Origin: an uncultured Alphaproteobacteria bacterium
Lineage (GTDB): Bacteria > Pseudomonadota > Alphaproteobacteria > HIMB59 > GCA-002718135
Assembly (NCBI GenBank): GCA_902524385.1
Contig: CABZCZ010000014.1
Span: 1-35,043 of the forward strand
Length of the DNA: 35,043 nucleotides
Reading direction: 5' to 3'
Shown: positions 10,454-35,043 of the stretch, piece after piece
Layout: each line of letters opens with the position of its first letter
Numbering within the stretch: the first letter of the stretch is position 1
The notes under the pieces: model-generated
Seen by the model: the letters and a program-made list of their open reading frames with translations, nothing else
Told to the model about the DNA's origin: nothing
Databases searched by the model: none
Position numbers and translations under genes: made by a program

Positions 10454-10454
10454 T

Positions 10455-14951: not shown

Positions 14952-14958
14952 TTAATTT

Positions 14959-16269
14959 ATGAATTTTTTTTCATATCTTTATCTTAAGATAAATTCAATT
15001 GATAAAATTAACTTTATTTTAATCTTTTTAATTCCTATTTCACTAGCTACAGGACCTGCTATTCCAGATATAATTATTACTACTTCTGTAATATTATTTC
15101 TTGTTTCAGTTTATTTAAATAAAGATTATTTTTTTTTTTATAATAAATTTTTTTTTATTTTTGTCCTTTTCTATTTGTACTTACTTTTATCCTCTTTCTT
15201 ATCTGATATGATATTATTTTCATTACATTCATCATTATTTTATTTAAGATTTTTTTTATTTTGTTTTGGTCTTTATTATTTGATTAGAAAAAATGAAAAT
15301 TTAATAATTTATATAATTTTCTCTTTAAGTCTAATTATTATATTACTTAGTATTGATGGTTATTTTCAATATTTTAATAAATATAATTTTTTAGGCTATG
15401 AGTATACTGGTGTAAGACTTTCTGGAGTCTTTGGAGAAGAACAAAAATTAGGAAGTTTCTTATCTAGACTTTTACCATTACTAATTTGTTTATTAATATA
15501 CACTAAATTTTTTAACAATAAAATTATCATTTATATAACCATTGTGTTATCTTTCTTTATAATAAATTTGATTTTAATTACTGGAGAAAGAACTGCATTA
15601 TTTTCCATATTCTTCTTTTTATTTTTATGTACTTTCTTACTTAAATTTACTTTTATTTATAAGTTTTTAATTTTTCTTACATTTACTTTTTCTTTATTAT
15701 TATTAATCATGAGCGATATAAATTTAAAAACACGTATAATTACTCTTACAATTAATCAAATTAATTCAACAACAGATAAAGGAGGTAAATTTGATGAGTC
15801 TGAAATTCAAAATGAGTATTTGTTTTCAAAAAATTTAAGAATTTTTTCTATTCAACATGAAAGTCATTATATTAGTGCTCTTAAAATGTTTAATAGTAAT
15901 AAAATATTTGGTATTGGCCCAAGATTATTTAGAGTAAAATGTGATGATGAAAAATACTACACTAAGTATGGTTGTTCAACACATCCTCATAATTTTTACA
16001 TTCAATTATTATCAGAAACTGGAATAATAGGATTTTTATTTCTTTTTACTCTTTTTATAATAATATCATATTATTTAATTAAGATTATTTTTATTCAAAA
16101 ATTTAGACTTCAGGAATCAAATTATAAAATTGCTATCATGATTACAATATATGTCAGTATTTGGCCTTTTATTCCTAATGGAAACTTTTTTAATAATTGG
16201 TTAAACATAATATTATATTTCCCGTTTTCATTTATATTGTTTTTCCTTGAAAAAGAAAATACACATTAA
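14959..16269 (+). CDS. O-antigen ligase / polymerase family membrane protein (WaaL/Wzy_C)
   Basis: The 436-residue integral membrane protein has about ten or more hydrophobic segments and one large extracytoplasmic loop (about residues 255-345). Near the end of the loop is THPHNFY (His342, His344, Asn345), followed by SETGIIGFLFLF. This is the hallmark of the Wzy_C superfamily of O-antigen ligases and polymerases. An ERTA segment after LITG fits the conserved arginine region. The enzyme would join undecaprenyl-linked glycan to lipid A-core or polymerise repeat units on the periplasmic face. Ligase and polymerase cannot be separated by eye. It lies eight bases after the Wzz-like gene and three before the WecA-like gene. 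Confidence 0.85.
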   Translation: MNFFSYLYLKINSIDKINFILIFLIPISLATGPAIPDIIITTSVILFLVSVYLNKDYFFFYNKFFFIFVLFYLYLLLSSFLSDMILFSLHSSLFYLRFFLFCFGLYYLIRKNENLIIYIIFSLSLIIILLSIDGYFQYFNKYNFLGYEYTGVRLSGVFGEEQKLGSFLSRLLPLLICLLIYTKFFNNKIIIYITIVLSFFIINLILITGERTALFSIFFFLFLCTFLLKFTFIYKFLIFLTFTFSLLLLIMSDINLKTRIITLTINQINSTTDKGGKFDESEIQNEYLFSKNLRIFSIQHESHYISALKMFNSNKIFGIGPRLFRVKCDDEKYYTKYGCSTHPHNFYIQLLSETGIIGFLFLFTLFIIISYYLIKIIFIQKFRLQESNYKIAIMITIYVSIWPFIPNGNFFNNWLNIILYFPFSFILFFLEKENTH

Positions 16270-16271
16270 AT

Positions 16272-17291
16272 ATGCATTTTTTATTGAGTGTTTTACTATT
16301 AAATACAATTTTATTTTTTGTTTATTTTTTTATTTTTTACAAATTTTCGGAAAAACTAAAAATAATTGATTATCCTGATAATGTTAGAAAAAAACATTCT
16401 TATCCTGTCCCAGCAATCGGAGGCTTAATAATCTATTTCTCTTTAGTTACTCAAGTTTTTAACCTCGATATATCTTATAATTTAAAAATAATAATTATCT
16501 CTTCTTCATTGGTAGTTCTTATTTCATATTTAGATGACTCTATCAAAATTGGAATATTACCTAGATTAATATCACAGGTTTTTGCTTCACTTATAATTAT
16601 AGGTTTTAATATAAGCATTTCTTATATTGGAAGTTATCCAATAATTGGAGAAATTTATTTATCTAATTTTAGTTTTCTTTTTACTTTATTTTGTATTTTG
16701 TTAGTCACTAATGCATATAATTTTATTGACGGAATTGATGGTTTAACGAGTACTCAATTTTTAATATCTTTATTAATTATTCTTTTTTATATTTACTTTG
16801 AAAATCCAGAAAATTTAAAATCAATAGATATTAAATTTGTTTATATTTTAATTTTCTTATCAATAATGTTCTTACTATTTAATTTAGGTCTTATTCCATC
16901 TAAAAAAATATTTTTAGGTGATAACGGATCAAATTTACTTGGTTTTATTTTAGGGTGGATAATTATATATTTTGCTCTTAAAGATTATATTTCTTCTACA
17001 TTATGTATATGGGTGGTATCTTTACCTTGCATAGATTTATTAAGAGTATTCATCGATCGAATAAAACTAAGGAAAAATCCTTTTCATCCTGATAGACTCC
17101 ACATTCATTTTTTATTTAAGGAAAAAAATTATTCTAACTCCTCTATATTATTTTTATTAAGTTTTGGTTCTGTAATATTTGGTGTTCTTGGCTACATATC
17201 ATTTATAATTGGCGGTGATATACTTTCAATTTTAACATTTGTAATTATTGTAGTTATTTATAATTTGTCTGTGAAAAAATTTTTATCCTAA
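16272..17291 (+). CDS. WecA/MraY-family undecaprenyl-phosphate sugar-1-phosphate transferase
   Basis: The 339-residue polytopic protein has the family landmarks in order: DNVRKKHSYPVPAIGG, YLDDSIKIGILPRL, NAYNFIDGIDGLT, FLGDNGSNLLGF and DRLHIHFLF. The aspartates bind Mg2+ and the HIH motif belongs to the polyprenyl-phosphate HexNAc-1-phosphate transferase group (WecA, WbpL and TagO type). It would begin the glycan by moving a sugar-1-phosphate from a UDP-sugar to undecaprenyl phosphate at the cytoplasmic face. The exact HexNAc is not readable, so no symbol is given. It is the last gene of the polysaccharide cluster. Its stop codon directly abuts the stop codon of the convergent gene. Confidence 0.92.
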   Translation: MHFLLSVLLLNTILFFVYFFIFYKFSEKLKIIDYPDNVRKKHSYPVPAIGGLIIYFSLVTQVFNLDISYNLKIIIISSSLVVLISYLDDSIKIGILPRLISQVFASLIIIGFNISISYIGSYPIIGEIYLSNFSFLFTLFCILLVTNAYNFIDGIDGLTSTQFLISLLIILFYIYFENPENLKSIDIKFVYILIFLSIMFLLFNLGLIPSKKIFLGDNGSNLLGFILGWIIIYFALKDYISSTLCIWVVSLPCIDLLRVFIDRIKLRKNPFHPDRLHIHFLFKEKNYSNSSILFLLSFGSVIFGVLGYISFIIGGDILSILTFVIIVVIYNLSVKKFLS

Positions 17292-20051: not shown

Positions 20052-21191
20052 CTAAACTTTAATATTATTAAAATAATTTAATCTTCCTATTATTTCATCT
20101 CTTTCAATATAATATCCTTGAAGATGTCTATTTCCAGAGTTTGGATCAAATTCAGTCCTCCCATGTAATACTCTTCTATTGTTAAAGCAAAATATATCAC
20201 CTGCCTCTAATCTAAAATCAATTTTAAATTTTTTGTTTTGAAGCAACGATGCAAAATATTGGTAGGCATCATAAAATTTTTTCATTTTTTTTGGATCAAC
20301 ATCAACTGTTCCCATTGCAGCCATACTAAATCTAATATCATTGAAATCATTATCTTTTGTTAGTGTTATTATTGGTGAATGAAGAATTCTGACAGCTTTT
20401 TGAGTATAATCAGTATCTTTGAATTTAACGTGAGTTTTTGCTAAAATATTAAAAACATCTTTTTCATTTTTTTTTAAATAATTTGCAACTGCAAAACCAT
20501 CTACAACAGATGATAATCCACCATTAGCTTTATTTACTAAGCAATGGAGAAACTGATAACCAGGAGCATATTCAAAATAAGGTAAGTCGGTATGATTTCT
20601 TAATGCATCTGCCGTATAAGCGGTGTTATTTGGCTTTGGAATGTTAATTACTTCAAATGGTGTACCAAAAAATGTTTCTCTATGATGGCTTATTCTATTT
20701 AATATTTTGAATGCTGATTTTTTGCTAGTTGGCGCATTTTTGATTAATGCAAAACCATAAGTATGAAGTAAATTTAACCATTTACTTAAATTTTTGTCAT
20801 TTTTTATTACACTATTATGATCAACAATAATTTTCTTTAAATTTTTTTTTAATTTACCATCCCAAAAAACATAAGGTGATTTATATTTTCGATTATTTAT
20901 TTCGGTATAACAATGATCTCTTAACCATTTTAAATTGAACTTGCTATTATGATCACCCTCACTCCAATCAATGTTGAGTTTATTTTTTTCAATTTTATAC
21001 TTTTTAGGAAATATATTTTTACTAACTGTTAAAATATTAAAGACTCGCATATTTGCAGTAGGGTGTATTGCTGTTGGACAATTATCTCTTAACCACATAA
21101 AATGGAATTTACTTTCAAAATTATCTTTCCACAAAATACTTAAATGGTCATTCTTTTTTTCTAATTTTTTTACATGATATTTACTACTCAT
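20052..21191 (-). CDS. Gamma-butyrobetaine-dioxygenase-like Fe(II)/2-oxoglutarate oxygenase
   Basis: The 379-residue protein has the two-domain layout of the BBOX/TMLH family. An N-terminal GBBH-like domain contains two WLRD segments (33-36 and 89-92). It is followed by a TauD-type double-stranded helix with the iron ligands His200, Asp202 and His343 and Arg355 for 2-oxoglutarate. FLHC(216-217 region), VDGF and an LHGR segment match human BBOX1. Such enzymes hydroxylate trimethylamino acids. In BBOX1 zinc is held by Cys38, Cys40, Cys43 and His82. Here Cys38 and His81 are kept, but Thr40 and His43 replace the other two. The substrate could be gamma-butyrobetaine, trimethyllysine or another betaine or phosphonate analogue. 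Confidence 0.85.
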   Translation of the reverse strand: MSSKYHVKKLEKKNDHLSILWKDNFESKFHFMWLRDNCPTAIHPTANMRVFNILTVSKNIFPKKYKIEKNKLNIDWSEGDHNSKFNLKWLRDHCYTEINNRKYKSPYVFWDGKLKKNLKKIIVDHNSVIKNDKNLSKWLNLLHTYGFALIKNAPTSKKSAFKILNRISHHRETFFGTPFEVINIPKPNNTAYTADALRNHTDLPYFEYAPGYQFLHCLVNKANGGLSSVVDGFAVANYLKKNEKDVFNILAKTHVKFKDTDYTQKAVRILHSPIITLTKDNDFNDIRFSMAAMGTVDVDPKKMKKFYDAYQYFASLLQNKKFKIDFRLEAGDIFCFNNRRVLHGRTEFDPNSGNRHLQGYYIERDEIIGRLNYFNNIKV

Positions 21192-22103: not shown

Positions 22104-23429
22104 TTAAAAAATTATTTCTTTTAAATTTTTTTTCTTATATTTTTGATTTCTTATTTTATTTAAAATATTTTTTTTACCTCCACACATTAAAAATTTATTA
22201 TTAATATCTTCGTCTCTTAAGGGGTTTTTTTTCCCTCCTTTAATATGTGATATTTTTTCAATCAATATACTTCCATCATTCATTATTACTTTAATTATAT
22301 CAGGATACTTAGGATCATAATCTTCAAAATTATTTGGCACTTTGTACGTGACTAGTTTAATTTTTTTAACCATATTTAAACTTTTTTTATTTTTGGAAAT
22401 AATTAAACTACTTAAATCAAATTTACCATTAATCAGAGCAGTTGCTAAACAATAACTCAATGAAAATCTAGCTTCAGTAGAATTTTTAGGTATATGAAAT
22501 TTTGATACTCTGAACCAAGGTTCTGGAAACTCAATTGTAATTGATTTAATATTTTTTTTTATAAAAATTTTTTTATTTAAAATTAATCCTCCTTGTATTA
22601 CTCTTTGTGAATAACTACAAACTGGCCAAAACTTAATGAAATTTGGAAATTTAATTATTGCATTTCCTAAATCTGATCTTTTAATATTATTATTTAATTT
22701 TTTAGAAAATTTACTACCATATAATTCAATAAATCCTCTCTCAATATTCCAAATATCTTGATTAGCTGTCCCTCCATTTTTTGCAAGTAAAGCTGATTGT
22801 ACACCTGCTTGGGCGGCAAAACCTATATGAAACGCTTTTGTATCTTTTCCGAATTGTTGTTTTAAGCCAGATGAAAAACTTGTAGCAATAGAAATTGCAT
22901 TTGCCATTTGATCCGCATTTAATTTTAACACTTTAGATACTGCTGCAGCAGTTCCAAGCACTCCTATTGTATTTGCTGAATGCCATCCTTTATAATAATG
23001 ATCATAACTAAGCGCTTTTCCTAATTTTATTATTAATTCATATCCTACTACCCATCCTTGATATATTTCTTCAATTGAAATGTTTTTCATTTGAGCGATA
23101 GATATAAGAGCTGAAAAAATAGGAGCACTAGGATGAGACCCAGCTACGTATTCGTAATCATCAAAGTCTATCGACGCTGATCTTACTCCATGTAAAAAAC
23201 TTGCAGCAGAAATAGATAATTTTTTTCCACCTCCAAAAACTTTTATTTTTCCTAAATTATTATTTTCTAAACAATATTTTAAAGCAACCTTTGATTGTTT
23301 TTCTTTAACACCTGATAATATACAAGCTAGGCTATCTATGAATGCATTTTCTGCTCTTTTATAAGTTACCTTATTTATTCTAATTTTTTTTTGTGATGCC
23401 CAATTACAAAATTTTTTATGAAAACTCAT
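22104..23429 (-). CDS. MmgE/PrpD family protein (2-methylcitrate-dehydratase-like)
   Basis: The 441-residue protein matches the MmgE/PrpD fold. Seen: an N-terminal AFIDSLACILSG segment, DFDDYEYVAGSHPSAPIFSA, GWHSANTIGVLGTAAAVSKVL, and FHIGFAAQAGVQSALLA. Known members dehydrate 2-methylcitrate, decarboxylate cis-aconitate or isomerise related acids, so the fold gives a broad dehydratase/isomerase expectation only. It is translationally coupled to the MaoC-type gene, whose TGA stop overlaps this ATG by four bases. The two proteins are made together and probably act on consecutive intermediates. No citrate synthase or methylisocitrate lyase is nearby, so a complete methylcitrate cycle is not encoded here. 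Confidence 0.88.
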   Translation of the reverse strand: MSFHKKFCNWASQKKIRINKVTYKRAENAFIDSLACILSGVKEKQSKVALKYCLENNNLGKIKVFGGGKKLSISAASFLHGVRSASIDFDDYEYVAGSHPSAPIFSALISIAQMKNISIEEIYQGWVVGYELIIKLGKALSYDHYYKGWHSANTIGVLGTAAAVSKVLKLNADQMANAISIATSFSSGLKQQFGKDTKAFHIGFAAQAGVQSALLAKNGGTANQDIWNIERGFIELYGSKFSKKLNNNIKRSDLGNAIIKFPNFIKFWPVCSYSQRVIQGGLILNKKIFIKKNIKSITIEFPEPWFRVSKFHIPKNSTEARFSLSYCLATALINGKFDLSSLIISKNKKSLNMVKKIKLVTYKVPNNFEDYDPKYPDIIKVIMNDGSILIEKISHIKGGKKNPLRDEDINNKFLMCGGKKNILNKIRNQKYKKKNLKEIIF

Positions 23430-24244
23430 TTTTGAAATTTTGTAATCATTGTGATTTCTTCTTTTTCATTGAGTATTCTTCCAATAATTTCATCTTTTGG
23501 ATTTCTGCCAATTTCTACAAAGAAATTATTGTTATATACAAGAGGCGCTGTAGCCCTATACTCAAAAGAATTAAAATCAATATCGTTTTTTCTTGCAAGA
23601 TTTAAAAGATAAGTTGCTTGAAGAGGTGCATGGACTAATAATCCATTATGACCCTCAAAATTTTTTGTATAATCATTATCATAATGAATCTTATGTCCAT
23701 TAAAAGTTAAGGCAGAATATCTAAATAGTAGAGTTGATGAGCTATAAATTTCTACTTTATCAATTAACTTAAATTCATCTTTTAATTTAGGAGTAATGAA
23801 GTTTTTATTTATTTTTTCTCTATAAACAGCAGTTTGATCTTCTGATACTATTAATTTATTTTTATTTAAATATTCATGATTAATATTAATAAAACATAGA
23901 TTGCCTGATTTACCTTCCTTAAATTCAATACTAGAAATAATTGAATTTTTTTTAATTTCAGATCCAATTTCAAATTTATCAAATATTTTTATTTTACCGC
24001 CAGCCCACATTCTAATTTTATAAGGTAACTCAGGTAAGAAAATTCCTAATTTTGTATTTCCATCTTTGTCTAGATCATTTAGTGAAGCTATATCTGGGCA
24101 TAAGCATAAAAAAATTCCCTCTGGTACGGTTTGATCACTTAAACAGTTTTGATCGATTGTTTTTTTTAAATGATCAACTAATCGAGGAGTAATAATATCA
24201 CTTCTTGAAATTTTCTTCCCAATCCAATCTTTATAATTATTCAT
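23426..24244 (-). CDS. MaoC/FAS1-type hydratase (mesaconyl-CoA-hydratase-like)
   Basis: The 272-residue protein has an N-terminal FAS1-like dehydratase half with MWAGGKIKIF (79-88). A C-terminal MaoC hot-dog half contains FRYSALTFNGHKIHYD (174-189) and EGHNGLLVHAPLQATYLL. This double hot-dog layout and wording are those of the 3-methylfumaryl-CoA / mesaconyl-C4-CoA hydratase group. Asn182 and His187 occupy the spacing of the Asp/His catalytic pair of R-hydratases, with Asn in place of Asp as is usual for this subgroup. The protein would hydrate a branched or unsaturated dicarboxylyl-CoA. It is first in a two-gene unit with the MmgE/PrpD gene and divergent from the GMC oxidoreductase. Confidence 0.85.
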   Translation of the reverse strand: MNNYKDWIGKKISRSDIITPRLVDHLKKTIDQNCLSDQTVPEGIFLCLCPDIASLNDLDKDGNTKLGIFLPELPYKIRMWAGGKIKIFDKFEIGSEIKKNSIISSIEFKEGKSGNLCFININHEYLNKNKLIVSEDQTAVYREKINKNFITPKLKDEFKLIDKVEIYSSSTLLFRYSALTFNGHKIHYDNDYTKNFEGHNGLLVHAPLQATYLLNLARKNDIDFNSFEYRATAPLVYNNNFFVEIGRNPKDEIIGRILNEKEEITMITKFQK

Positions 24245-25991: not shown

Positions 25992-27464
25992 ATGTCTGAA
26001 ATTCAAACCTACAAATTTTATGCAGGAAATAAATGGCATGACCCTTCTTCTGAAAAATATTTTGAAAGTGAGGATCCATCTATAGGTAAAGTATGGGCAA
26101 GGGTCCCTGACTGTAATGAAAAAGATATTAATCTTGCAGTATTATCTGCTAAACATGCTTATTATGATGGTCCTTATGGTAAAATGCATCCAGCAGAAAG
26201 AGGGAGAGCATTAACTAGAATTGGAGATATTATTGCTAAAAATGCAGAACGCATTGGACAGATAGAAACTAAAGACAACGGCAAACTACCAAAAAATATC
26301 ACTCCTTCTTTAACCAGCTGGCAGACTGAGAGTTTTTATTATTATGCAGGCATGTGTGACAAGTATGAAGGTAGATTGATACCTTCAGAGGTTCCATATA
26401 TGCATAATTATTTAAAATGGGAACCATTTGGAGTTGTTGCACTTATTCTTCCTTGGAATTCACCTATTGGAACATTGATCTGGAAATTAGCGCCGGCAAT
26501 AGCTGCAGGCAATACAGTTGTAATTAAACCATCAGAAAGAGCATCGTGCTCTACATTAGAGTTGATGAAAATTTTAGAAGAAGCCGATCTACCAGAAGGT
26601 TTGATTAATGTTGTTACTGGTTTTGGTTCTACAACCGGAGCACCTCTTATTGAACACCGAGATGTTAGAATGATAAGTTTTACAGGTGGAACAAAAGGGG
26701 GGAGTGCAGCAAGTTTAAGTGCATCCAAAAATGTTAAACCTATTATTATGGAGCTAGGAGGAAAATCACCACAAATTATATTTAAAGATGCTGATTTAAC
26801 TTTATCAGTTAATGGAGTTGTATCAGGAATCTTTCCAGTTTCAGGTCACAGCTGTATTTCAGGATCAAGAATACTAGTACATAAAGATATAAAAGATAAA
26901 TTTACTTATAATTTATTAGAAGTTGTAAAAAAGGCTAAAGTAGGTCACCCAAATAATTCTGAAACTCAAATTGGCCCTATAGCAAATAAAGAACAATATG
27001 ATTTTATTTTATCTAAAATAGAATCTGCAGAAAAAAGAGGTTTAAAATTATTAATTGATGGAAGAAAAGAACAAAAATCTAAAGGATACTATATTGGACC
27101 AACTATTTTTGATAATGTTCCAAATGAAGATGATCTAGCTCAAAATGAAGTATTTGGACCTGTCGCCTCAATACAAACTTGGGAGGATGAAGATGAAGTA
27201 ATTAAAATTGCAAACGATACTATTTATGGGCTTGCAGCAGGTATTTGGACTAAAGATACTAATAAAGCTATACGTTTAGCAGATAAGATAGAAGCTGGAA
27301 CTGTTTATATAAATAATTATTTTAATGCCTCTACTCAATCTCCAGTTGGAGGCTTCAAGCAATCAGGATACGGTCGTGAAAATGGATGGGAGGGAATGCA
27401 AAGTTACATGCAGACTAAATCTACTTGGCTAGCTACCAATCCATTTCAACCAAACCCATTTTAA
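25992..27464 (+). CDS. NAD(P)+-dependent aldehyde dehydrogenase (second copy)
   Basis: The 490-residue ALDH has PWNSP (154-158), VIKPSERAS, FTGGTKGG, general-base Glu254 in MELGGKSPQ, nucleophile Cys288 in SGHSCISGSR, NEVFGPVASI and FGGFKQSGYG-like ending (here GGFKQSGYGRENG). All catalytic residues are present and the length is normal. It follows the GMC oxidoreductase on the same strand and probably shares its transcript, suggesting that it removes the aldehyde formed there. It also converges with the crotonase end of the minus-strand demethylation operon, seven bases away. It could therefore serve the aldehyde made by that operon's ThDP enzyme. Both links are inference. Confidence 0.93.
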   Translation: MSEIQTYKFYAGNKWHDPSSEKYFESEDPSIGKVWARVPDCNEKDINLAVLSAKHAYYDGPYGKMHPAERGRALTRIGDIIAKNAERIGQIETKDNGKLPKNITPSLTSWQTESFYYYAGMCDKYEGRLIPSEVPYMHNYLKWEPFGVVALILPWNSPIGTLIWKLAPAIAAGNTVVIKPSERASCSTLELMKILEEADLPEGLINVVTGFGSTTGAPLIEHRDVRMISFTGGTKGGSAASLSASKNVKPIIMELGGKSPQIIFKDADLTLSVNGVVSGIFPVSGHSCISGSRILVHKDIKDKFTYNLLEVVKKAKVGHPNNSETQIGPIANKEQYDFILSKIESAEKRGLKLLIDGRKEQKSKGYYIGPTIFDNVPNEDDLAQNEVFGPVASIQTWEDEDEVIKIANDTIYGLAAGIWTKDTNKAIRLADKIEAGTVYINNYFNASTQSPVGGFKQSGYGRENGWEGMQSYMQTKSTWLATNPFQPNPF

Positions 27465-27471
27465 AAAGTAA

Positions 27472-28263
27472 TTATTCTTTCCAGTTTGGTTCTCTTTTTT
27501 CTAAAAAAGCTTCAATACCTTCCTTGGAATCATCATGTAACATATTTTCTGTCATAACCTTTGAAGTAAAAGTATATGCGTCTTCTAAATTCATATCTTT
27601 TTGTTTGTAAAAAGCTTCTTTACCAATTTTAATAGTATTAAAAGATTTAGACGATATTTTTTTAGCAATTTGAAATACATTTTCTCTTAAAAAATCTTCT
27701 TCAAAGACATCATTTATTAAACCAATCCTTAATGCTTTATTTGCATCAATAAGATCTCCAGTGAGAAGCATTTCCATTGCTTGCTTTTTACCTACAGTTC
27801 TTGATAGTGGAACCATTGGTGTAGAACAAAATAATCCAATATTAACACCAGGTGTTGCATATTTTGCTTTACTACTTGAGTAAGCTAAATCACAGCTAGA
27901 AATTAACTGACAGCCTGCTGCAGTAGCAATACCATCAACCATAGCTATAACTGGTTTATTATTTTTATTAATTTTCAGCATAAGTTGAGAGCACATTTGA
28001 AATATTTTTTTAAAATAGCTTTCACCTTTGTCATTTTTCAATCTTTGTGAATTTAAATCTTTTAAATTATGTCCTGCACAAAAAATATTACCTTTTGAGG
28101 ATAAAATAATTACTTTTACATCATTATCTTTATCAGCAATGTCTAGCGCTGATGTTAATTCATTGATCATGTTTTCGCTTAAAGTGTTTTGGTTTTTCTG
28201 GTCATTAAGAATAATATTAAAAATATTATTATTTTTTTCGATTAATATTAGATTTAAATTCAT
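27472..28263 (-). CDS. Crotonase-fold protein, ECHDC3-like
   Basis: The 263-residue protein has the crotonase oxyanion-hole elements FCAGHNLKDL (61-70) and DGIATAAGCQLISSCDLAY (110-128). ATPGVNIGLFCSTP (136-149) is almost a signature of ECHDC3. In true enoyl-CoA hydratases two glutamates lie at the equivalents of residues 119 and 139. Here they are Gln119 and Gly139. Classical hydration of an enoyl-CoA is therefore unlikely, and another acyl-CoA reaction or binding role is expected. DmdD, the methylthioacryloyl-CoA hydratase of DMSP degradation, is from the same superfamily but uses the glutamates. The ATG directly abuts the OsmC stop, so it is the last gene of the operon. Confidence 0.88.
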   Translation of the reverse strand: MNLNLILIEKNNNIFNIILNDQKNQNTLSENMINELTSALDIADKDNDVKVIILSSKGNIFCAGHNLKDLNSQRLKNDKGESYFKKIFQMCSQLMLKINKNNKPVIAMVDGIATAAGCQLISSCDLAYSSSKAKYATPGVNIGLFCSTPMVPLSRTVGKKQAMEMLLTGDLIDANKALRIGLINDVFEEDFLRENVFQIAKKISSKSFNTIKIGKEAFYKQKDMNLEDAYTFTSKVMTENMLHDDSKEGIEAFLEKREPNWKE

Positions 28264-28710
28264 TTAATTGATTTGAATTTCAACATCTTTAGATAGTGAA
28301 TTAGCGATAAAACAATACTTATGTGATCTCTCTTTCATCTTTTTCATTTCTTCATCAGAAATATTAAAATTATCTTCAAATACTATAGCTGGATTTAGTT
28401 CTATTTTATTGACGTACATTCTTCCTTCTGCATTTTTTCCTAAATACGAAATTGCTTTGTCTTTATAATTTATAACTGGCCATTTCATTTTTGCAGCTAA
28501 AGCTAAGAATGTCATCATAAAACAACTACTTACAGCTGCAGCTAGTTTCTGTTCTGGATTAATATTAGTTTCACTCCCTCCATAATCTGGAGATGATCCT
28601 GCATCAATTGATGTATTTTCGTTAAGTATTACCGTGTGATCAGTTAAGTACTTTCCAAATTCAAGTTTTTGATCTCCTAATTCCCACTTTAATTCGATTG
28701 AATGACTCAT
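28264..28710 (-). CDS. OsmC-family peroxidase-like protein
   Basis: I choose the ATG at 28710 rather than an upstream one at 28758. It gives MSHSIELKWELG, a normal OsmC N-terminus, and avoids a 47-base overlap with the demethylase gene. The 148-residue protein has EQKLAAAVSSCFMMTFLALA with Cys63 and HKYCFIANSL with Cys133, the reactive cysteine pair of OsmC/Ohr proteins. The family reduces organic hydroperoxides with thiols, and members of the YhfA/OsmC branch have other or unknown roles. Placed between a demethylase and a crotonase, it might protect thiol intermediates such as methylthio compounds, which is inference. It is cytosolic. Confidence 0.85.
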   Translation of the reverse strand: MSHSIELKWELGDQKLEFGKYLTDHTVILNENTSIDAGSSPDYGGSETNINPEQKLAAAVSSCFMMTFLALAAKMKWPVINYKDKAISYLGKNAEGRMYVNKIELNPAIVFEDNFNISDEEMKKMKERSHKYCFIANSLSKDVEIQIN

Positions 28711-28711
28711 T

Positions 28712-29833
28712 TTAAGAATAATTAAAAGGCAAGGAACAAACTTTACCTTTTCTCTCAATATTGTCTGGTGTTAATACAATAACATCCTGCCCATCATTCC
28801 AATAATCTCTATCAACCATTGATAGTCCAATATTGGTTTTTAAAAAAGGTGAATAAATGCCAGAGGTAATATTACCAATTTGAAATCTATTTTTTGAGTA
28901 TACTGGAAAAGGTATTGAGCATGGAGGAGTCGGGGACCCATCAAAAGTAATTCCTTTTATTTTTTTTTCTATTCCATTTCTTAATATTTTTTTTAGTGCA
29001 TTTTTTCCTATGAAATCATGAGATAAATCATTACAATATTCATCAAATCCACATTCAATTGGATTATTTTCTAAAGTAAATTCATTACCATAGGATAATA
29101 AACCACCTTCTATTCTATCAATTAAATTTGGACAACCAGGAGAAATATTAAAATCTTTTCCAGCTCCCCATATTGTTTCCCAAAGTTTTTTTCCTAAACC
29201 AAAACCTTTAAGATAAATTTCAAACCCATCTTGTTTACTATAACCTGATCTTGCAATTATCTGTTTTGTTCCTTCAAACTCAAAAAAAGAAAAATGAAAG
29301 AATTTTAATTTTTTAATTTTTTGACCAAATATAGAAGACATTAATTCTTCAGATTTTGGCCCTTGAATCGCTAAGGGGTAAACATCAGGCTCAATAATAT
29401 TAACTTTAAAACTTCTTCCTACCGCTAATCCTTTTGCCCAAAGTAGAACATCTGAATCTGCAACTGATAACCAATATTTATTTTCACTTAATTTTAAAAG
29501 AACAGGATCATTAATCATCCCTGCATTTTCATCAATCATTGGATAATAATAACATTTACCAATTGGCATATGCTTAATAGATCTAGGTGACATAAGCTCA
29601 ACTAATTTTTCAGAATCAACTCCCTCTATTTGAACTTGCCTTTGACAAGATACATCCCATATCTGAGTATTTTGAGATAAGTGCCAATAATCTTCTTCTA
29701 CTGTTGCTTTATATGATTTTGGAAGAAGCATATGATTTACGACAGTAAAACCACTTACACCAGCTTCAATTACTTTTTCTGTATAAGGAGTTCTCCTAAT
29801 ACGTCTTGACATGTTTAATCCTGAACTACTCAT
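28712..29833 (-). CDS. dmdA: DmdA-family tetrahydrofolate-dependent demethylase (DMSP demethylase-like)
   Basis: The start at 29833 gives 373 residues and avoids overlap with the preceding gene. An in-frame ATG at 29863 would add ten residues. Seen: SRRIRRTPYTEKV (9-21), YNHM-like VVNHMLLP, DYWHL, IWDVSCQRQVQI (58-69), ADSDVLLWAKGLAVG, PLAIQGPKS, RSGYSKQDGFEIY, GCPNLIDRIEGGLLSYGN and a final KVCSLPF. This is the pattern of DmdA rather than of glycine-cleavage T protein. The Asp-Asp pair of GcvT reads Asn108-Asp109 here. DmdA moves one methyl from DMSP to tetrahydrofolate, leaving methylmercaptopropionate. Its place between a transthyretin-like protein and OsmC is unusual. The family is confident, the substrate less so. 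Confidence 0.8.
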   Translation of the reverse strand: MSSSGLNMSRRIRRTPYTEKVIEAGVSGFTVVNHMLLPKSYKATVEEDYWHLSQNTQIWDVSCQRQVQIEGVDSEKLVELMSPRSIKHMPIGKCYYYPMIDENAGMINDPVLLKLSENKYWLSVADSDVLLWAKGLAVGRSFKVNIIEPDVYPLAIQGPKSEELMSSIFGQKIKKLKFFHFSFFEFEGTKQIIARSGYSKQDGFEIYLKGFGLGKKLWETIWGAGKDFNISPGCPNLIDRIEGGLLSYGNEFTLENNPIECGFDEYCNDLSHDFIGKNALKKILRNGIEKKIKGITFDGSPTPPCSIPFPVYSKNRFQIGNITSGIYSPFLKTNIGLSMVDRDYWNDGQDVIVLTPDNIERKGKVCSLPFNYS

Positions 29834-29834
29834 T

Positions 29835-30170
29835 TTATTTAGACCACCAAATTGAATAACCATTTGGTGAAATGATTAATGGTATATGATATTTTTTTTC
29901 TGAATCTTTCATTTTAAATTTAACACTTATTGAATTAATTATTTCACTAGTATTTCTAAAATATTTACCAGAATTAATTATCATTTCATAATCACTTTCA
30001 CAATCTTCTTTCGTTAATTCAAATTCTTTAAGCATTCTACCAGAGCTATCTGTTTTATCTTCTAGAAATACAACTTTGTTATCATTATTTGATTTATAAA
30101 TTATAATTTCTACATCACCTGCATGCGTACCATCTATCGAGTTTAGTAAATGTGTCGAAAAAATAGCCAT
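29835..30170 (-). CDS. Transthyretin-like / 5-hydroxyisourate-hydrolase-related small protein
   Basis: The 111-residue protein follows the HIUase/transthyretin fold. It starts FSTHLLNSIDGTHAGDVEI with His7, has TDSSGRMLKEF with Arg45, and YHIPLIISPNGYS with His95. These are the positions of the three catalytic residues of HIUase. The diagnostic C-terminal YRGS tetrapeptide is replaced by YSIWWSK, so hydrolysis of 5-hydroxyisourate is doubtful. No uricase, OHCU decarboxylase or allantoinase is nearby. It lies three bases after the ThDP enzyme and one base before the DmdA-family gene. A role in that pathway, perhaps as a hydrolase or binding protein, is likely but unknown. Confidence 0.8.
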   Translation of the reverse strand: MAIFSTHLLNSIDGTHAGDVEIIIYKSNNDNKVVFLEDKTDSSGRMLKEFELTKEDCESDYEMIINSGKYFRNTSEIINSISVKFKMKDSEKKYHIPLIISPNGYSIWWSK

Positions 30171-30173
30171 AAA

Positions 30174-31916
30174 TTACTCTATAGAAGCTTTATCTCTTTT
30201 ATCGCTGACTGCAGCAACTATTGGACTAATAACACCTTTAGCCTTAACATTAACACAAGCAGTTTTACCACTTTCTAACGCTCTTTTTAATGCAGGACCT
30301 AAATCTTCTCTTTTAGTAACTAATTCTCCATGTCCTCCAAAACCTTCAAAAATAGAATGAAATGGAATATCTCTGAAATCAGTTGCAAAGTGTTTCCCAC
30401 TTTCAAATAACCTTTCTTGTTGTTGAGAAATACAGTCAAGGCCTCCATTGTTATCTATTACTACAACAATGGGCTTTTTTTCTTGAAATGCAGCTTCAAT
30501 TGATAATCCACCAGATAAAAATGCACCATCTCCACTTATTAAAACAACATTAGAATTAGGATTAAGATTTTTTGCTGATACTGCAAAAGGAACTCCAACA
30601 CCTAACATACTGAAAGTGCCTGGATGTAATATTCCGCCAAGTTTTTTACCTTTTGATCCAGCAATATTAATTGCAATCTCGGACCAGAAATGCGTGTTAC
30701 CACCATCAATAACTAACCAATCATTTTCTGTTAATACCTCTTGAACATCTAAAGCTAATTGAAGAGGATGAATTTTTCCGCCATTTTTTTTGGCATCTTC
30801 AGTTTCTTCTTTTAAATCATCTAATGTTTTATCAATCCAATTTTTTTTCTCTTTTTTATTCTTATCAAACCATTCATCGTTTAATTTCCATTTACTGTTT
30901 TTCTTTAATTCTATAAGTTTATCTAAAAAGACTCCAGGATCACAAAGTAAGTTAATATCTGCAGCTCTATTTAATTCTATTTCTTCATGCGATCCATTAA
31001 TACAGACAAGCTTAATACTTTTTGGAAAAAGTGGAGGATTACCAAAATTCATCTGATTATCAAGACGCGCACCAATCATAAGAACCAAATCTGATTCATT
31101 AAGGGCCATTTTTGATGGAGGATATTGATGAATATCTGCTAGACCCATGTATGTATCCGCCTCTTCTCCTAAAAGCTTTTGATGGTATGGTATATTAAAT
31201 ATTGGAATGTTTAATTCAAAACCAGCTTGCTCTAATTTTTTTTCTGCATTAGACCACCAAACACCATGCCCTCCAATAAAAACTGGTTTTTGAGCATTAA
31301 TTGCTAGATTAAATATTTCATTTAAACTCTCAGGATCAGGCCAAGCTTTGGTTAATGGTTTTTTTTGATGAGTAAAAGGTCTTTCTTCTAAACCTGCATC
31401 ATCAGCAAATGATGAAAACATTATATCTACTGGCACACTTAAATGTACTGCTCCTGGATAGCCATTTGTTGCAATTCTATATGCTCTATCTACAAACTCT
31501 CTTATTCTGTTGCCGTCTGTTATACTTGCACTGTATTTTGTTAAAGGTGCTGCAATAGATACGTCATCTATTTCCTTAAAACCGCCTGCCCCTTGTCTTT
31601 TTAAGCTACTTGATCCAGTTATAAAAATAACAGGTGATCTTTCACCCCAAGCTTCCATCATTGATGGTACTGCATTTGCAAAACCTTCTGGTCCTACAAT
31701 ACAAACGGATGGTTTTCTCGATATTCTAGTATGACCATCAGCTAAATGACCAGCAATTTGTTCATGAGGACAATTAATTACATTAATTTGACACTCCATA
31801 AATCCTTCAAGTGCTGGATTACAAAAACCTCCAGAAAGTGTAAAAACATTTTCAATACCTTTGTCTCTAAGAGCTCTTGCAACTAATGCACCACCTCTAA
31901 TCTTTTTACCTCCCAT
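30174..31916 (-). CDS. Thiamine-diphosphate-dependent decarboxylase/lyase (acetolactate-synthase-like)
   Basis: The 580-residue protein has the three ThDP-enzyme domains. The N-terminal Pyr domain carries the cofactor-activating Glu52 in PHEQIAGHLADGHTR, the middle domain contains GLADIHQYPP and LVLMIGARLD, and the C-terminal PP domain has the metal/ThDP motif GDGAFLS...NN (462-490). It is not the biosynthetic acetohydroxyacid synthase by context, since no IlvN or IlvC is nearby. Relatives include benzoylformate decarboxylase, 2-hydroxyacyl-CoA lyase and sulfoacetaldehyde acetyltransferase. It begins one base after the FMN 2-hydroxyacid dehydrogenase. The expected reaction is therefore decarboxylation or C-C cleavage of the 2-oxo acid that enzyme forms. 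The precise substrate is unknown. Confidence 0.87.
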   Translation of the reverse strand: MGGKKIRGGALVARALRDKGIENVFTLSGGFCNPALEGFMECQINVINCPHEQIAGHLADGHTRISRKPSVCIVGPEGFANAVPSMMEAWGERSPVIFITGSSSLKRQGAGGFKEIDDVSIAAPLTKYSASITDGNRIREFVDRAYRIATNGYPGAVHLSVPVDIMFSSFADDAGLEERPFTHQKKPLTKAWPDPESLNEIFNLAINAQKPVFIGGHGVWWSNAEKKLEQAGFELNIPIFNIPYHQKLLGEEADTYMGLADIHQYPPSKMALNESDLVLMIGARLDNQMNFGNPPLFPKSIKLVCINGSHEEIELNRAADINLLCDPGVFLDKLIELKKNSKWKLNDEWFDKNKKEKKNWIDKTLDDLKEETEDAKKNGGKIHPLQLALDVQEVLTENDWLVIDGGNTHFWSEIAINIAGSKGKKLGGILHPGTFSMLGVGVPFAVSAKNLNPNSNVVLISGDGAFLSGGLSIEAAFQEKKPIVVVIDNNGGLDCISQQQERLFESGKHFATDFRDIPFHSIFEGFGGHGELVTKREDLGPALKRALESGKTACVNVKAKGVISPIVAAVSDKRDKASIE

Positions 31917-31917
31917 C

Positions 31918-33081
31918 TTAATACTTTATATCCTTAAAAAATTTCTCTGCTATAATTTTTTTATCAACTTCATTTATATCTGTTAATCCTACTAAGCCAA
32001 GATTAGTACTTAACTCCTCTTTAATTAAGTTGATAATTCTTCGCAGACCTCTTGAACCATCTGCGCCAATGGCATACATTAGAGGTCTGCCAAACATAAC
32101 AAAATCAGCTCCTAGAGCTAATGCACGTAAAATATCACTACCACTTCTAATACCACTATCAAAAAGTATTGGAAAACCATCTCCCAAAGCTTTTCGAATT
32201 AATGGTAAAGCATTAATAGAAGCAGTAGCACTATCTAATTGCCTTCCACCATGATTAGATACTTGAATTGCATCAGCACCGGCTTCTTTAATTTTTAAAG
32301 CATCTTCAGAATTCATTACTCCTTTGATTATTAATTTTCCTTTCCATGTGTCTCTAACCCTTTTTAGAGTATTCCAATCAGTTGCTCCTCTACTTTCTTT
32401 TCGTCTAAAAATTTGATCACCACTTTTAGAAGTAACATAATTCATTGGTTTTGGTGCTCCTTTTAATAAAGTTGTTAAACTCCATTGAGGATGTAGTGCA
32501 AAATCTAAAAATTGTTTTGGACCTATTTTAAATGGATAGCCAAAACCATTTCTGTCATCTCTTGCTCTTCTTGAAAGAATAGGCACATCAACAGTAAGAA
32601 TTAAAACTTTGTATCCAATATTTTCTGCTCTTTTTAATAATTCCATAATAAATTCTTCACTTTGAAAAATATATATCTGCATCCACGAATGACCTTCTGA
32701 AAAAGTAAACATATCTTCAAGTGTTGTACTAGATGCCATTGAGACACATGTTGGAATATTATTATATGCACTTTCTTTTGCTATCATTTTATCTGCTTCA
32801 GGCCATGAAAGATTTGTCATTCCCATTGGAGCAAATCCAAATGGATAATTAAAATTAAAATCAATTATTTTTTTACTTAAATTTCTATTTTCGACATTTC
32901 TAAAAACCTTAGGTTCAAGTCTAATTTGATCTAATGCTGTACTATTGATTTCTGCAAGTTTATCATCTCCTGATGCTCCATCAATAAAATCAAAGACTAA
33001 TTTTGGTAATCTTTTTTTAGATAATCTTATTGCATCATCTATTGTATGGATTTTAGAGCTAGGTTTAATGAGATCATTCAT
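31918..33081 (-). CDS. FMN-dependent 2-hydroxyacid dehydrogenase/oxidase (LldD/GOX/mandelate-dehydrogenase family)
   Basis: The 387-residue TIM-barrel flavoprotein has FGFAPMGMTNL, QIYIF with Tyr137, TVDVPILSRR, the FMN-binding Lys253 in LIIKGVM, catalytic His277 and Arg280 in VSNHGGRQLD, and FDSGIRSGSDILRALALGAD. These oxidise an L-2-hydroxy acid to the 2-oxo acid, passing electrons to quinone or oxygen. At the position of the substrate-carboxylate-binding Tyr24 of glycolate oxidase the sequence reads Phe32 (DFIDGAS), which may mark a different substrate. It heads a six-gene run with 0-3 base gaps and is followed by a ThDP enzyme. This is the same pairing as mandelate dehydrogenase with benzoylformate decarboxylase. 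Confidence 0.9.
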   Translation of the reverse strand: MNDLIKPSSKIHTIDDAIRLSKKRLPKLVFDFIDGASGDDKLAEINSTALDQIRLEPKVFRNVENRNLSKKIIDFNFNYPFGFAPMGMTNLSWPEADKMIAKESAYNNIPTCVSMASSTTLEDMFTFSEGHSWMQIYIFQSEEFIMELLKRAENIGYKVLILTVDVPILSRRARDDRNGFGYPFKIGPKQFLDFALHPQWSLTTLLKGAPKPMNYVTSKSGDQIFRRKESRGATDWNTLKRVRDTWKGKLIIKGVMNSEDALKIKEAGADAIQVSNHGGRQLDSATASINALPLIRKALGDGFPILFDSGIRSGSDILRALALGADFVMFGRPLMYAIGADGSRGLRRIINLIKEELSTNLGLVGLTDINEVDKKIIAEKFFKDIKY

Positions 33082-33129
33082 TTTAATATTTGTATTCTAA
33101 TATAATTTATAATTCTATTATAAAATATG
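33082..33129 (-). promoter_or_regulatory. Probable promoter region of the six-gene minus-strand operon
   Basis: Forty-eight AT-rich bases separate the upstream GcvT-fold gene from the FMN dehydrogenase gene, the second-largest gap on this strand side. Reading the - strand, TATAAT occurs at 33122-33117, 35 bases before the ATG, with further TATAAA and TATATT words nearer the start. No -35 box or operator repeat is evident. Read-through from upstream is also possible. Confidence 0.4.
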
Positions 33130-34359
33130 TTAGTTTTTTGAAATACCCTTCCAAGGTATTGGACTGGACGGAATATTTTCTTTTAAGCCTCTTTGTATTT
33201 CACCTTTCTCATCATACATTGGTAAAGTACAGATCTCGCCTTTTTGCAAACTACCATCATCACAAGTAACATCAACTATTGTTCCTGGTCCAAATTCTGC
33301 TTGATCCATATGAACTATAGCAACACCACAAACTTGAAATGGCGACCATGTACTTGAAGTTACAATTCCAATTTTTTTATTATTAATAGAAATCTCAGAA
33401 TCAACTAATGCAAAACTATTTTCCACTCTCATACCCCATGTTAAACAATCTTTGCTTGCATTTAGTAAATAATCTCTCCCAATAAAATCCTCTTTATTAA
33501 AATCTATAAACTTTCCTAACCCAACAGCAAATGGAGATCTATCACTTGTAAAATCTCTCCCAGCAGATAACAGACCTGCCTCAATCCTTCTACATCTAAA
33601 TCCTGGTGAGGCTGTTAGGATCATTCCCATTTCTTTACCTTTTCTTAATATTAAGTCTCCAATTTTTTTAGAATCATTTTGTGGTCTTAAGTAAATTTCC
33701 CATCCTAGTTCATTCGTAAAACCTGTTCTACTTATAATTACTTCTTCTGAAGCAATTGAAGTTTCAGTCCAATCAAAGTAATTAAAATAATTTTTTAATG
33801 GTTGATCAACTAGTTTTTCTAATAGTTTTAGAGATTTAGGACCTTGTATTTGACTAACCCAAACATTTGGATCTTTAATTTCAACATCTAAATTTTTCGA
33901 ATGAGCTTTGTACCAACTATATAAATGCCCATCACCTTGTGCAAACCAAAATTTATTTTTTTCTAATCTTAATAATAATCCATCTGAAATCATACCTCCA
34001 TCATGGTAGCAAGCAAATTGATAAGAACATCGTCCGATTTTTACTTTTGATATATCTCTAGGAAATATTTGTTGAAGTAAATTTTCAGCATCTGGACCTG
34101 AGATTTCGTAAGGATGCTCACCCGTATGACGTAAAATTATTTCTTGTCTAGCTTTCCAATACATTTCATCTGCTGTAGCATGAGATAATTTTTCAAGCGT
34201 AAATCTCCCATCAGCGTAGTTAGTATATTCTGGGTTAAGTGGTAACTCTTGATATGTAAGAGGATGTATTTTCATGGGTCTAGCCAAATCTAGAGATCTA
34301 CCAGTTTCTTTAATAACTGGCTTTACAACAAATCTGTAATTATTAACTAAATCTCCCAT
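33130..34359 (-). CDS. GcvT-fold tetrahydrofolate-dependent methyltransferase/demethylase
   Basis: The 409-residue aminomethyltransferase-family protein has an N-terminal extension of about 60 residues, not seen in GcvT. Then come HTGEHPYEISGPDAENLLQ (78-96), the GGMISDG segment (121-127), VSQIQGPKS, SRTGFTNELGWEIYLRP, FRCRRIEAGLLSAGRDF and the C-terminal barrel ending CTLPMYDE. The Asp-Asp pair of glycine-cleavage T protein is Ser125-Asp126 here, and the rest of the glycine cleavage system is absent. It is therefore more likely a demethylase of a methylated N, S or O compound than GcvT. It is distinct in sequence from the DmdA-family gene downstream. It lies 41 bases after the homocysteine methyltransferase gene. 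Confidence 0.85.
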   Translation of the reverse strand: MGDLVNNYRFVVKPVIKETGRSLDLARPMKIHPLTYQELPLNPEYTNYADGRFTLEKLSHATADEMYWKARQEIILRHTGEHPYEISGPDAENLLQQIFPRDISKVKIGRCSYQFACYHDGGMISDGLLLRLEKNKFWFAQGDGHLYSWYKAHSKNLDVEIKDPNVWVSQIQGPKSLKLLEKLVDQPLKNYFNYFDWTETSIASEEVIISRTGFTNELGWEIYLRPQNDSKKIGDLILRKGKEMGMILTASPGFRCRRIEAGLLSAGRDFTSDRSPFAVGLGKFIDFNKEDFIGRDYLLNASKDCLTWGMRVENSFALVDSEISINNKKIGIVTSSTWSPFQVCGVAIVHMDQAEFGPGTIVDVTCDDGSLQKGEICTLPMYDEKGEIQRGLKENIPSSPIPWKGISKN

Positions 34360-34400
34360 AAAATTTATTCAACTTATCATAAAATAATGAAAAAAAAATT

Positions 34401-35042
34401 TTAAAATATATTCTTTATAGCTTCAATATGTCGTGGCTTAACTTCACAGCATCCACCTACTAAAGTAACACCTTTATTTAAAGAATTTAAAACAAATTTT
34501 TTATATTTTTCTTCTCCAAATTCTTCATTTCTAGTTCCAAGCAATTCAACAGGATCAATATAATCGTAATGACCCTCAAAACCGTCTGAATTGAATTTTT
34601 TTTTATCACTAGTAGGGAGCTGTTTAAATAAATTCATTTTGTACCCAAAAGGAAGCTTTTGTTTATTGAATATAGGAATACTTAAACTAACGATTTCAGG
34701 TGATACGCATGCTGATAATATACCACAACAGTTAAAATTTTGAATAGTTTCAAATAGTTTATCAAGACTTTCTCCAGATGGTAATTTTCCGTCATAACGT
34801 AAGTGCACACCTACAAGAACCTGTTTATTAAATTCTTTTGAAGCTTCTAAGGCAATTTTTATTTCTTTAATTGAACACAAAACATCTAAGTAAAATATAT
34901 CGACGTAATCTCTTAATATTTTTGCAATTTCATGAAAATAATTAAACATTGTTTCATCAGTTTCAAAATGTATAGGCGAATATGTATTACCTTGATTTGG
35001 TAATGAGCCAGCAACAATAACCTTTTTATCACTTTCATTTTT
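34401..35042 (-). CDS. Homocysteine S-methyltransferase (MmuM/BHMT family), 5' end outside the window
   Basis: The frame stays open to the window edge, so the N-terminal part is missing. The ATG at 34949 is internal, because VIVAGSLPNQGNTYSP, a typical family segment, precedes it. Seen further on: GVHLRYDGKLPSGES, ILSACVSPE holding the first zinc cysteine, and GGCCEVKPRHIEAI holding the Cys-Cys pair. The three cysteines bind the zinc that activates homocysteine. The enzyme makes methionine from homocysteine and a methylated donor such as S-methylmethionine, glycine betaine or DMSP. The donor cannot be told from this fragment. It precedes two THF-dependent demethylase-type genes on the same strand, which fits a shared methyl-group economy. 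Confidence 0.88.
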   Translation of the reverse strand, partial: KNESDKKVIVAGSLPNQGNTYSPIHFETDETMFNYFHEIAKILRDYVDIFYLDVLCSIKEIKIALEASKEFNKQVLVGVHLRYDGKLPSGESLDKLFETIQNFNCCGILSACVSPEIVSLSIPIFNKQKLPFGYKMNLFKQLPTSDKKKFNSDGFEGHYDYIDPVELLGTRNEEFGEEKYKKFVLNSLNKGVTLVGGCCEVKPRHIEAIKNIF

Positions 35043-35043
35043 T

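Follow-up and report, generated by a model that had tools for sequence, protein, structure and literature searches.

Several described systems come close to the genes considered here, namely the mandelate pathway, the DmdA-type demethylation of dimethylsulfoniopropionate (DMSP) and the enzymes that act on its precursor 4-dimethylsulfonio-2-hydroxybutyrate (DMSHB). DMSHB is an intermediate of DMSP synthesis, and the DMSHB decarboxylase described in print is DsyD (of DsyGD), a DMSP-synthesis enzyme with a ureidoglycolate-lyase domain, PF04115 (PMC11306096). Two papers on SAR116 bacteria infer DMSP demethylation from dmdA (PMC12262181, PMC8547437), and in SAR11 the proteins SAR11_1265 and SAR11_1303 are given as GcvT-like aminomethyltransferases of unknown substrate (PMC3160333). 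Here we analysed a stretch of 35,043 nucleotides (the window; contig CABZCZ010000014.1 of GenBank assembly GCA_902524385.1) from an uncultured alphaproteobacterium of the genus GCA-002718135, whose source genome has 1.43 Mb and is 80% complete. Six minus-strand open reading frames (ORFs) were confirmed at 27472-33081, encoding a flavin mononucleotide (FMN)-dependent 2-hydroxy-acid oxidase/dehydrogenase family protein, a thiamine diphosphate (ThDP)-dependent lyase/decarboxylase, a transthyretin-like protein (TTR), a DmdA-family methyltransferase, an OsmC-family protein and a crotonase (Table 1). The first four genes form a block that recurs in several lineages, and no description of it was found in the open-licence literature. 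We tentatively propose, with somewhat less than even confidence, that marine alphaproteobacteria use this block as the core of an undescribed pathway which degrades an onium-methylated 2-hydroxy acid (with a quaternary-ammonium or sulfonium group), probably taken up in amide-linked form.

Synteny was scored by tblastn in 110 loci, of which 51 are from the window's own genus, 33 from Pelagibacteraceae (SAR11), 10 from SAR116-like bacteria, 12 from family f24 and 4 from family f81. These comprise 10 of the 31 carriers in the order of G321, all 12 in f24, 4 of 5 in f81 and 4 of the 5 Pelagibacteraceae-family carriers at E 1e-100, plus 80 loci kept from 553 relatives. SAR116 for the order of G321 and Rhodobacteraceae for f24 are inferred labels, and the group of the window's genus is presumably the AEGEAN-169/HIMB59 group. 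The paralogue loci L199, L200 and L207, the short near-copy L124 of L125, three loci with no block (L210, L127, L128) and short search-derived loci (L009-L038, L119-L122, L129, L161-L189) were excluded from the counts. Since the loci of the own genus and of Pelagibacteraceae are often near-copies, the counts do not represent independent events. On the same strand as the ThDP gene and within 1 kb of it, the TTR gene is present in 110/110 loci, the dmdA-like gene in 104/110 (among the six misses is L043, which a contig end truncates) and the FMN gene in at least 100/110; the script itself counted 98 FMN genes, a minimum because some high-GC genes, among them those in L130 and L217, were mis-called in early tables. 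Thus, FMN-ThDP-TTR-DmdA is a conserved block and no chance grouping, recurring in the window's genus, in Pelagibacteraceae and in the groups taken as SAR116 and Rhodobacteraceae. A first-pass annotation of the window had named absence of conserved synteny elsewhere as a finding that would refute its reading, and the opposite was found. It had also treated all six genes as one unit, which stands for these four but not for the remaining two. The gene for OsmC occurs in 47/51 loci of the own genus and 0/59 others, and that for crotonase in 44/51 and 1/59, respectively. The aldehyde dehydrogenase gene that converges on the window's crotonase gene and stops 7 bases short of it has homologues in 44/51 fetched stretches of the own genus and 0/59 others (tblastn, E 1e-10, stretches of up to about 20 kb). 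All three were therefore rejected as core parts, being essentially limited to the window's genus.

Within the window's genus, at least 71 of 102 genomes, mostly incomplete assemblies, have a close ThDP orthologue (at least 85% identity, fragments counted); among the matches listed, none came from the 8 genomes that represent other genera of the family. With E 1e-100 as the limit, the gene is present in 5/117 Pelagibacteraceae-family genomes, 32/121 in the order of G321 (in one case a 37% paralogue only), 12/295 in f24, 5/14 in f81 (one a fragment), 6/385 across the class and 2/398 across the phylum, with the window's genome counted in both of the last. The closed genomes G321 (2,753,527 bases) and G874 (1,456,888 bases) carry the block; the closed Pelagibacteraceae-family genomes G315 and G405 have no ThDP gene. 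Identity of the ThDP protein is 79–90% in the nearer and 62–75% in the most distant lineages, and this gene is the best conserved one of the block. A protein search with it was uninformative on distant relatives, the best 120 of 3482 matches being near-copies, and a plasmid search returned two distant records (28–29% identity). The block is carried by lineages that count among the most abundant ones of the surface ocean.

As for the chemistry of the block, a single-sequence search placed the ThDP protein nearest to oxalyl-CoA decarboxylase/2-hydroxyacyl-CoA synthase (190.8 bits), and a profile search gave benzaldehyde lyase/formolase (270 bits), 2-hydroxyacyl-CoA lyase (HACL; 260 bits) and acetolactate synthases (about 218 bits or less). 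Benzoylformate decarboxylase is absent from the best 60 of 154 PDB sequences in the profile search, so the mandelate-pathway logic of the first-pass annotation is a loose analogy: the pairing of an FMN hydroxy-acid family protein with a ThDP enzyme stands, but the ThDP enzyme lies nearest to the benzaldehyde lyase/HACL group. The ThDP protein reaches no NCBIfam cut-off among the 25 of 51 families shown, and the FMN protein reaches none. The catalytic Glu of the ThDP enzyme (Glu52) is invariant in 19/19 aligned rows, and the catalytic Lys, His and Arg together with Tyr129 of the FMN enzyme are kept in 30/30 aligned block copies, the roles of these residues being those we assume for the two families. 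Both proteins agree with a sequence in which a 2-hydroxy acid is first oxidised and then cleaved at a C–C bond, and neither fixes the substrate. With the block conserved and these residues kept, the earlier suggestion that 2-hydroxy-acid oxidation, ThDP-dependent cleavage and folate-dependent demethylation belong together is borne out.

The block DmdA aligns with the DmdA of Ca. Pelagibacter ubique (PDB 3tfh) at 398.7 bits and has the length and the folate-binding domains of known DmdA proteins. In a tree of 61 sequences, all 30 block copies fall into one clade (support 95/100) that includes none of the roseobacter-type or SAR11-type rows; a reference row was presumed to represent a verified enzyme by its type. 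The block copies of L213 and L219 were left out of the tree and that of L206 was mis-called; the motif of all three was checked separately. The clade is marked by the pocket motif V-N[HR]x(L/I)LPK, with Val at residue 42 and Lys at residue 49 of the window's protein, which is present in 30/30 tree copies and 0/26 other aligned DmdAs (a set that excludes the DmdA' of L200 and five rows of the second GcvT-like protein, DmdA2); these 26 have Tyr in place of Val and no Lys at these N-terminal positions. The V...LPK motif was also seen in 104/104 block copies of the scored loci, many of them near-copies. Hence the earlier assignment as a DmdA-family demethylase holds by the NF009133 cut-off, but the protein is outside the roseobacter-type and SAR11-type clades and has a pocket motif of its own. 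W171 is given as a key DmdA residue for DMSP (PMC7487153), which by count is Trp197 of 3tfh. At this position the block copies have Tyr, and so does roseobacter-type DmdA; the Trp-to-Tyr change was therefore rejected as a marker of a non-DMSP enzyme. Of 38 genomes that encode the ThDP protein, 33 have a block DmdA over the cut-off. In 21 of these 33 a second DmdA over the cut-off is encoded elsewhere, so DMSP use in them may not depend on the block copy, and the second DmdA of the window's genome, the only second copy placed in the tree, groups with the SAR11-type rows. The other 12 carriers, including 8/8 tested from f110 and f238, have no further DmdA over the cut-off, some of the assemblies being incomplete.

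The TTR is a member of the 5-hydroxyisourate hydrolase family, with a TIGR02962 score of 70.7, below the cut-off of 87.45. His7, Arg45 and His95 are invariant in 16/16 aligned block copies, all of which end in W-x-S instead of YRGS; we take His/Arg/His to be the catalytic residues and the C-terminal YRGS to be the motif of 5-hydroxyisourate hydrolase. A PF00576 protein is present in 38/38 carrier genomes, and 31 of them have a second, higher-scoring one elsewhere, which is absent in 7/38. Of the second loci read, 29/30 end in YRGS, and the remaining one gave no fitting ORF. The changed C-terminus, the score below the cut-off and the canonical copy elsewhere indicate that the block TTR is a paralogue with an altered active-site end, probably still a hydrolase.

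Around the block, partner genes vary with the lineage. A family-5 (Dpp-type) importer binding protein, nearest to GsiB or NikA and reaching no cut-off, is encoded in 77/110 loci (38/51 in the own genus, 27/33 in Pelagibacteraceae, 9/10 in SAR116-like bacteria, 3/12 in f24 and 0/4 in f81), a count lowered by contig ends because many contigs are short. In relatives from the own genus, the importer lies just beyond the genes for DmdA2 and homocysteine S-methyltransferase, the latter being found in 40/51 loci of the own genus, 1/33 of Pelagibacteraceae and 0/26 others. An S51 peptidase is encoded in 41/110 loci (0/51, 30/33, 9/10, 2/12 and 0/4 in the same order). DmdA2 is present in 43/51 loci of the own genus, 28/33 of Pelagibacteraceae and none in the remaining groups; the MttB family (PF06253) occurs in 4/10 SAR116-like and 3/12 f24 loci and not in the own genus or Pelagibacteraceae, so that the two are mutually exclusive by group. 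The folate domain of trimethylamine N-oxide (TMAO) demethylase is the nearest relative of DmdA2 (PDB 9q5a, 131.5 bits; NF053776, 186 bits, below cut-off). A thiolase gene follows dmdA within 200 bases in 33/33 Pelagibacteraceae loci, and after it, where the order was seen, comes a branched-chain aminotransferase gene (19/33 SAR11 fetched stretches, 1/51 in the own genus), for example at L213 13774-14652 (PRK07544, 463.5 vs cut-off 396). Beyond the aminotransferase, SAR11 loci including L213 carry PotABCD-like, ectoine-hydrolase-like M24 and EutA-like genes. Inside MttB-family genes, the Rfam element PYLIS_3 (pyrrolysine insertion, mttB) gave matches at L123 7383-7493 and L190 4296-4395; as the MttB of L123 is an uninterrupted 541-aa ORF, this match may reflect coding similarity alone.

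The cluster also has variants. In G1246 (L191 28-19899), sarcosine-oxidase-like and folate C1 genes (folD- and fhs-like, named by eye) lie on one strand with those for ThDP, TTR and DmdA, and an epimerase/dehydratase-family gene takes the usual position of the FMN gene. The block DmdA of G1246 is followed by a BKACE-like protein (236 vs 382, below cut-off) and then by a carnitine 3-dehydrogenase over its cut-off (647.1 vs 592). A urease-like operon is also seen near this block (partly by eye). A second cluster in G1296 (L200 3477-9369) has the order GMC - ThDP' (37% identity) - DmdA' - crotonase - small Dabb-like protein; the link of ThDP and DmdA in two related clusters supports action in one pathway. 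In two different lineages (L199, L207), ThDP' was noticed beside OpuA-like, choline-dehydrogenase-like GMC and sulfatase-like genes (partly by eye). The ThDP-TTR pair is also able to stand without DmdA: it lies among PhyH, TauD and thiolase genes in G1030, it occurs without DmdA in G1306, and in family f81 it is found in G474, G1365 and G1366, none of which has a DmdA at E 1e-80. In G474 and G1365 it adjoins a gene that was judged by eye to be asparaginase-like. In G1239, the gene after dmdA is cystathionine-synthase/methionine-lyase-like and reaches no cut-off among the families shown.

From the observed gene content, gene order, conservation, families and conserved residues, we infer the following reactions, their order and their substrate. 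A Dpp-type ABC importer would bring the substrate in, the S51 peptidase (or the asparaginase-like enzyme in one lineage) would cut the amide, and DmdA2 or the MttB-type protein would take off one methyl group. The FMN enzyme would then turn the 2-hydroxy into a 2-oxo group, the ThDP enzyme would cleave the adjacent C–C bond, the transthyretin-like hydrolase would handle its product and the DmdA-clade enzyme would transfer a methyl group to tetrahydrofolate, whereupon the remaining acid would enter beta-oxidation through the crotonase in the window's genus or the thiolase in SAR11. The substrate class is read from gene content alone, which favours a larger, amide-linked onium 2-hydroxy acid. 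The conserved synteny, the single block-specific DmdA clade with its pocket motif, the use of either DmdA2 or MttB within a group, the importer and peptidase genes at many loci, the thiolase after dmdA in Pelagibacteraceae, the GMC - ThDP' - DmdA' - crotonase cluster, which echoes the logic of the block, and, in G1246, the BKACE-like protein and carnitine 3-dehydrogenase after the block DmdA with the sarcosine-oxidase-like and folate C1 genes on its other side all count for this pathway. It is possible, though we say so with reserve, that SAR11, SAR116-like, AEGEAN-169-like and some Rhodobacteraceae-like bacteria share it, in which case a dedicated ThDP lyase and a repurposed TTR would split an onium 2-hydroxy acid that had been released from an amide and oxidised, and its methyl group would be fed to folate by a DmdA-like enzyme that does not act on DMSP. 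Several points weigh against the proposal. Phe replaces Tyr24, the residue we take to contact the carboxylate in glycolate oxidase, in 28/30 FMN copies including that of the window; and the importer and peptidase families are broad, with no peptidase in the own genus and few of either in f24. The ThDP-TTR pairs without DmdA (G474, G1365, G1366, G1030, G1306) mean that the core does not necessarily require a methylated substrate. Furthermore, it would be odd chemistry for a single ordinary quaternary amine to lose two methyl groups by non-oxidative transfer, so the two methyltransferases may belong to separate steps or act on separate molecules, and in the 12 carriers whose only DmdA over the cut-off is the block copy this copy could serve DMSP.

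A narrower form of the same proposal, which we consider unlikely as it stands, takes the substrate to be a carnitine- or betaine-type quaternary-ammonium compound and the DmdA clade to be an N-demethylase. The carnitine 3-dehydrogenase and BKACE-like protein of G1246, the MttB-family proteins in 7/22 SAR116-like and f24 loci, the choline-dehydrogenase-like GMC and OpuA-like genes in the ThDP' clusters (by eye) and a gamma-butyrobetaine-dioxygenase-like gene at 20052-21191 of the window (322 vs cut-off 414.75, below) would all agree with it. However, none of these links extends beyond one or a few lineages, carnitine belongs to the 3-hydroxy acids, and we noticed no carnitine genes at the blocks of SAR11 and SAR116-like bacteria, where the one SAR11 neighbour tested scored 67.4 vs 592.

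The route favoured by the first-pass annotation, in which DMSHB would be oxidised to its 2-oxo acid by the FMN enzyme, decarboxylated to DMSP-aldehyde by the ThDP enzyme, oxidised to DMSP by the aldehyde dehydrogenase and demethylated by DmdA, now seems improbable. DMSHB is itself an onium 2-hydroxy acid, the FMN, ThDP and DmdA genes are tightly linked, the aldehyde dehydrogenase gene adjoins the crotonase gene in the window, and the 12 carriers with a sole DmdA would agree with a DMSP function. The aldehyde dehydrogenase is nevertheless not conserved with the block, since none of the 59 fetched loci outside the genus has a homologue of the window's enzyme, although an unrelated or more distant one may serve. 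In addition, the block DmdA is a separate clade and would be redundant beside another DmdA in 21/33 genomes, and the importer, S51 peptidase, TTR and second methyltransferase are left without a task. DMSHB is thus one candidate, but not the favoured one.

A related order of events, with DMSHB or a conjugate first demethylated by the block DmdA to 4-methylthio-2-hydroxybutyrate, then oxidised by the FMN enzyme to 4-methylthio-2-oxobutyrate and finally either converted to methionine by transamination or split by the ThDP enzyme, has a low probability in our judgement. The branched-chain aminotransferase of the SAR11 loci and the cystathionine-synthase/methionine-lyase-like gene of G1239 would suit it, and the clade-specific Lys of DmdA could contact an extra polar group; but these neighbours are lineage-specific, the pyridoxal-phosphate (PLP) protein of G1239 reaches no cut-off, and TTR, peptidase and MttB would have no role. 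Similarly doubtful is an ordinary hydroxy-acid or branched-chain catabolic operon in which DmdA is merely carried along. The FMN and ThDP families do include lactate dehydrogenases and acetolactate synthases, but the dmdA-like gene adjoins the ThDP gene in 104/110 loci, the 30 copies tested form one clade, and ThDP' and DmdA' are linked again in the paralogous cluster. Finally, a purine/ureide pathway with TTR as hydroxyisourate hydrolase is very improbable and was rejected, for although the family membership, the conserved His/Arg/His, the S51, asparaginase-like, Ldh_2 (AllD-like, below cut-off) or arginase-family neighbours in some lineages and the 7/38 genomes with only the block PF00576 copy would allow it, the block TTRs lack YRGS, stay below the TIGR02962 cut-off and are accompanied by a canonical YRGS copy elsewhere in most carrier genomes. 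Pantothenate, ectoine, cyanophycin, ergothioneine and betaine-lipid substrates were also considered and dropped for want of specific genes, by reasoning on gene content.

The proposed pathway for an onium-methylated 2-hydroxy acid would bear on the use of dmdA as a marker. The block DmdA passes the standard DMSP-demethylase threshold despite its separate clade and different partners, and in 12/33 carriers it is the sole DmdA to do so. If it is inactive on DMSP, some estimates that rely on dmdA could overstate DMSP demethylation, notably for SAR116, and part of the surveyed dmdA would belong to a different, undescribed methyl cycle.

Table 1. Genes of the block and its immediate neighbours in the window (bits are those of the family matches).
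Feature	Position	Strand	Details
Crotonase, PRK08139-type enoyl-CoA hydratase	27472..28263	-	PF00378; NF006008 365.9 vs cut-off 313
OsmC-family protein	28264..28710	-	PF02566 57.3 bits
DmdA-family folate-dependent methyltransferase, separate clade	28712..29833	-	PF01571+PF08669; NF009133 527.6 vs cut-off 410
Transthyretin-like protein (TTR), 5-hydroxyisourate hydrolase paralogue	29835..30170	-	111 aa; PF00576 69.6 bits
ThDP-dependent lyase/decarboxylase	30174..31916	-	580 aa; three TPP_enzyme domains (N, M, C)
FMN-dependent 2-hydroxy-acid oxidase/dehydrogenase family protein	31918..33081	-	387 aa; PF01070 393 bits
DmdA2, second GcvT-like protein	33130..34359	-	PF01571 141.7 bits; upstream of the six genes, same strand
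Homocysteine S-methyltransferase, cut by window end	34401..35042	-	PF02574 78.6 bits; upstream, same strand

The Pfam matches of Table 1 agree with all six family assignments made earlier. In the mechanical ORF list, OsmC starts at TTG 28758 and DmdA at an early ATG 29863, with overlaps of 47 bases between OsmC and DmdA and 29 bases between DmdA and TTR. As read from the translations, the in-frame starts at ATG 28710 and ATG 29833 are likelier to be the true ones; with them the intergenic spacings are 0, 1, 1, 3 and 1 bases, so that the gaps of 0-3 bases reported before are correct. Between 17292 and 27464, the window carries a cysteine-desulfurase-like gene, two betaine-aldehyde-dehydrogenase-like genes, an EamA permease gene, an MmgE-like gene, a choline-dehydrogenase-like GMC gene and a gene (23426-24244) for a 272-aa protein without Pfam match. 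The region 1-17291 holds genes for surface polysaccharide and nucleotide-sugar biosynthesis, as judged by eye from the translations. Rfam gave no match at E 1 or better over window positions 27000-35043, and no riboswitch reached the gathering threshold in ten sources.

Compared with the known systems, the block resembles the mandelate pathway in that an FMN hydroxy-acid family protein (242.2 bits to mandelate dehydrogenase 6bfg) is followed by a ThDP enzyme; it differs in the type of the ThDP enzyme and in the added TTR and DmdA, and no aromatic-pathway genes were noticed. With benzaldehyde lyase/formolase and 2-hydroxyacyl-CoA lyase/oxalyl-CoA decarboxylase, the ThDP protein shares the three-domain family and the catalytic Glu, but it reaches no cut-off among the families shown and adjoins TTR in all loci scored. 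DsyD, as reported, would act on DMSHB, the substrate proposed by the first-pass annotation, and is a different protein; its PF04115 domain had no match among the ten window proteins scanned. Likewise, 5-hydroxyisourate hydrolase (HIUase/UraH) belongs to the same family as the block TTR, which keeps its His, Arg and His, but ends in YRGS where the block TTR has W-x-S and a score below the cut-off. As to the methyltransferases, SAR11_1265 and SAR11_1303, as they are described, fall into the same broad family as DmdA and DmdA2. DmdA2 resembles the folate domain of TMAO demethylase and reaches no NCBIfam cut-off, and the MttB-type methyltransferases, which are present in some of the SAR116-like and f24 blocks, reach none either.

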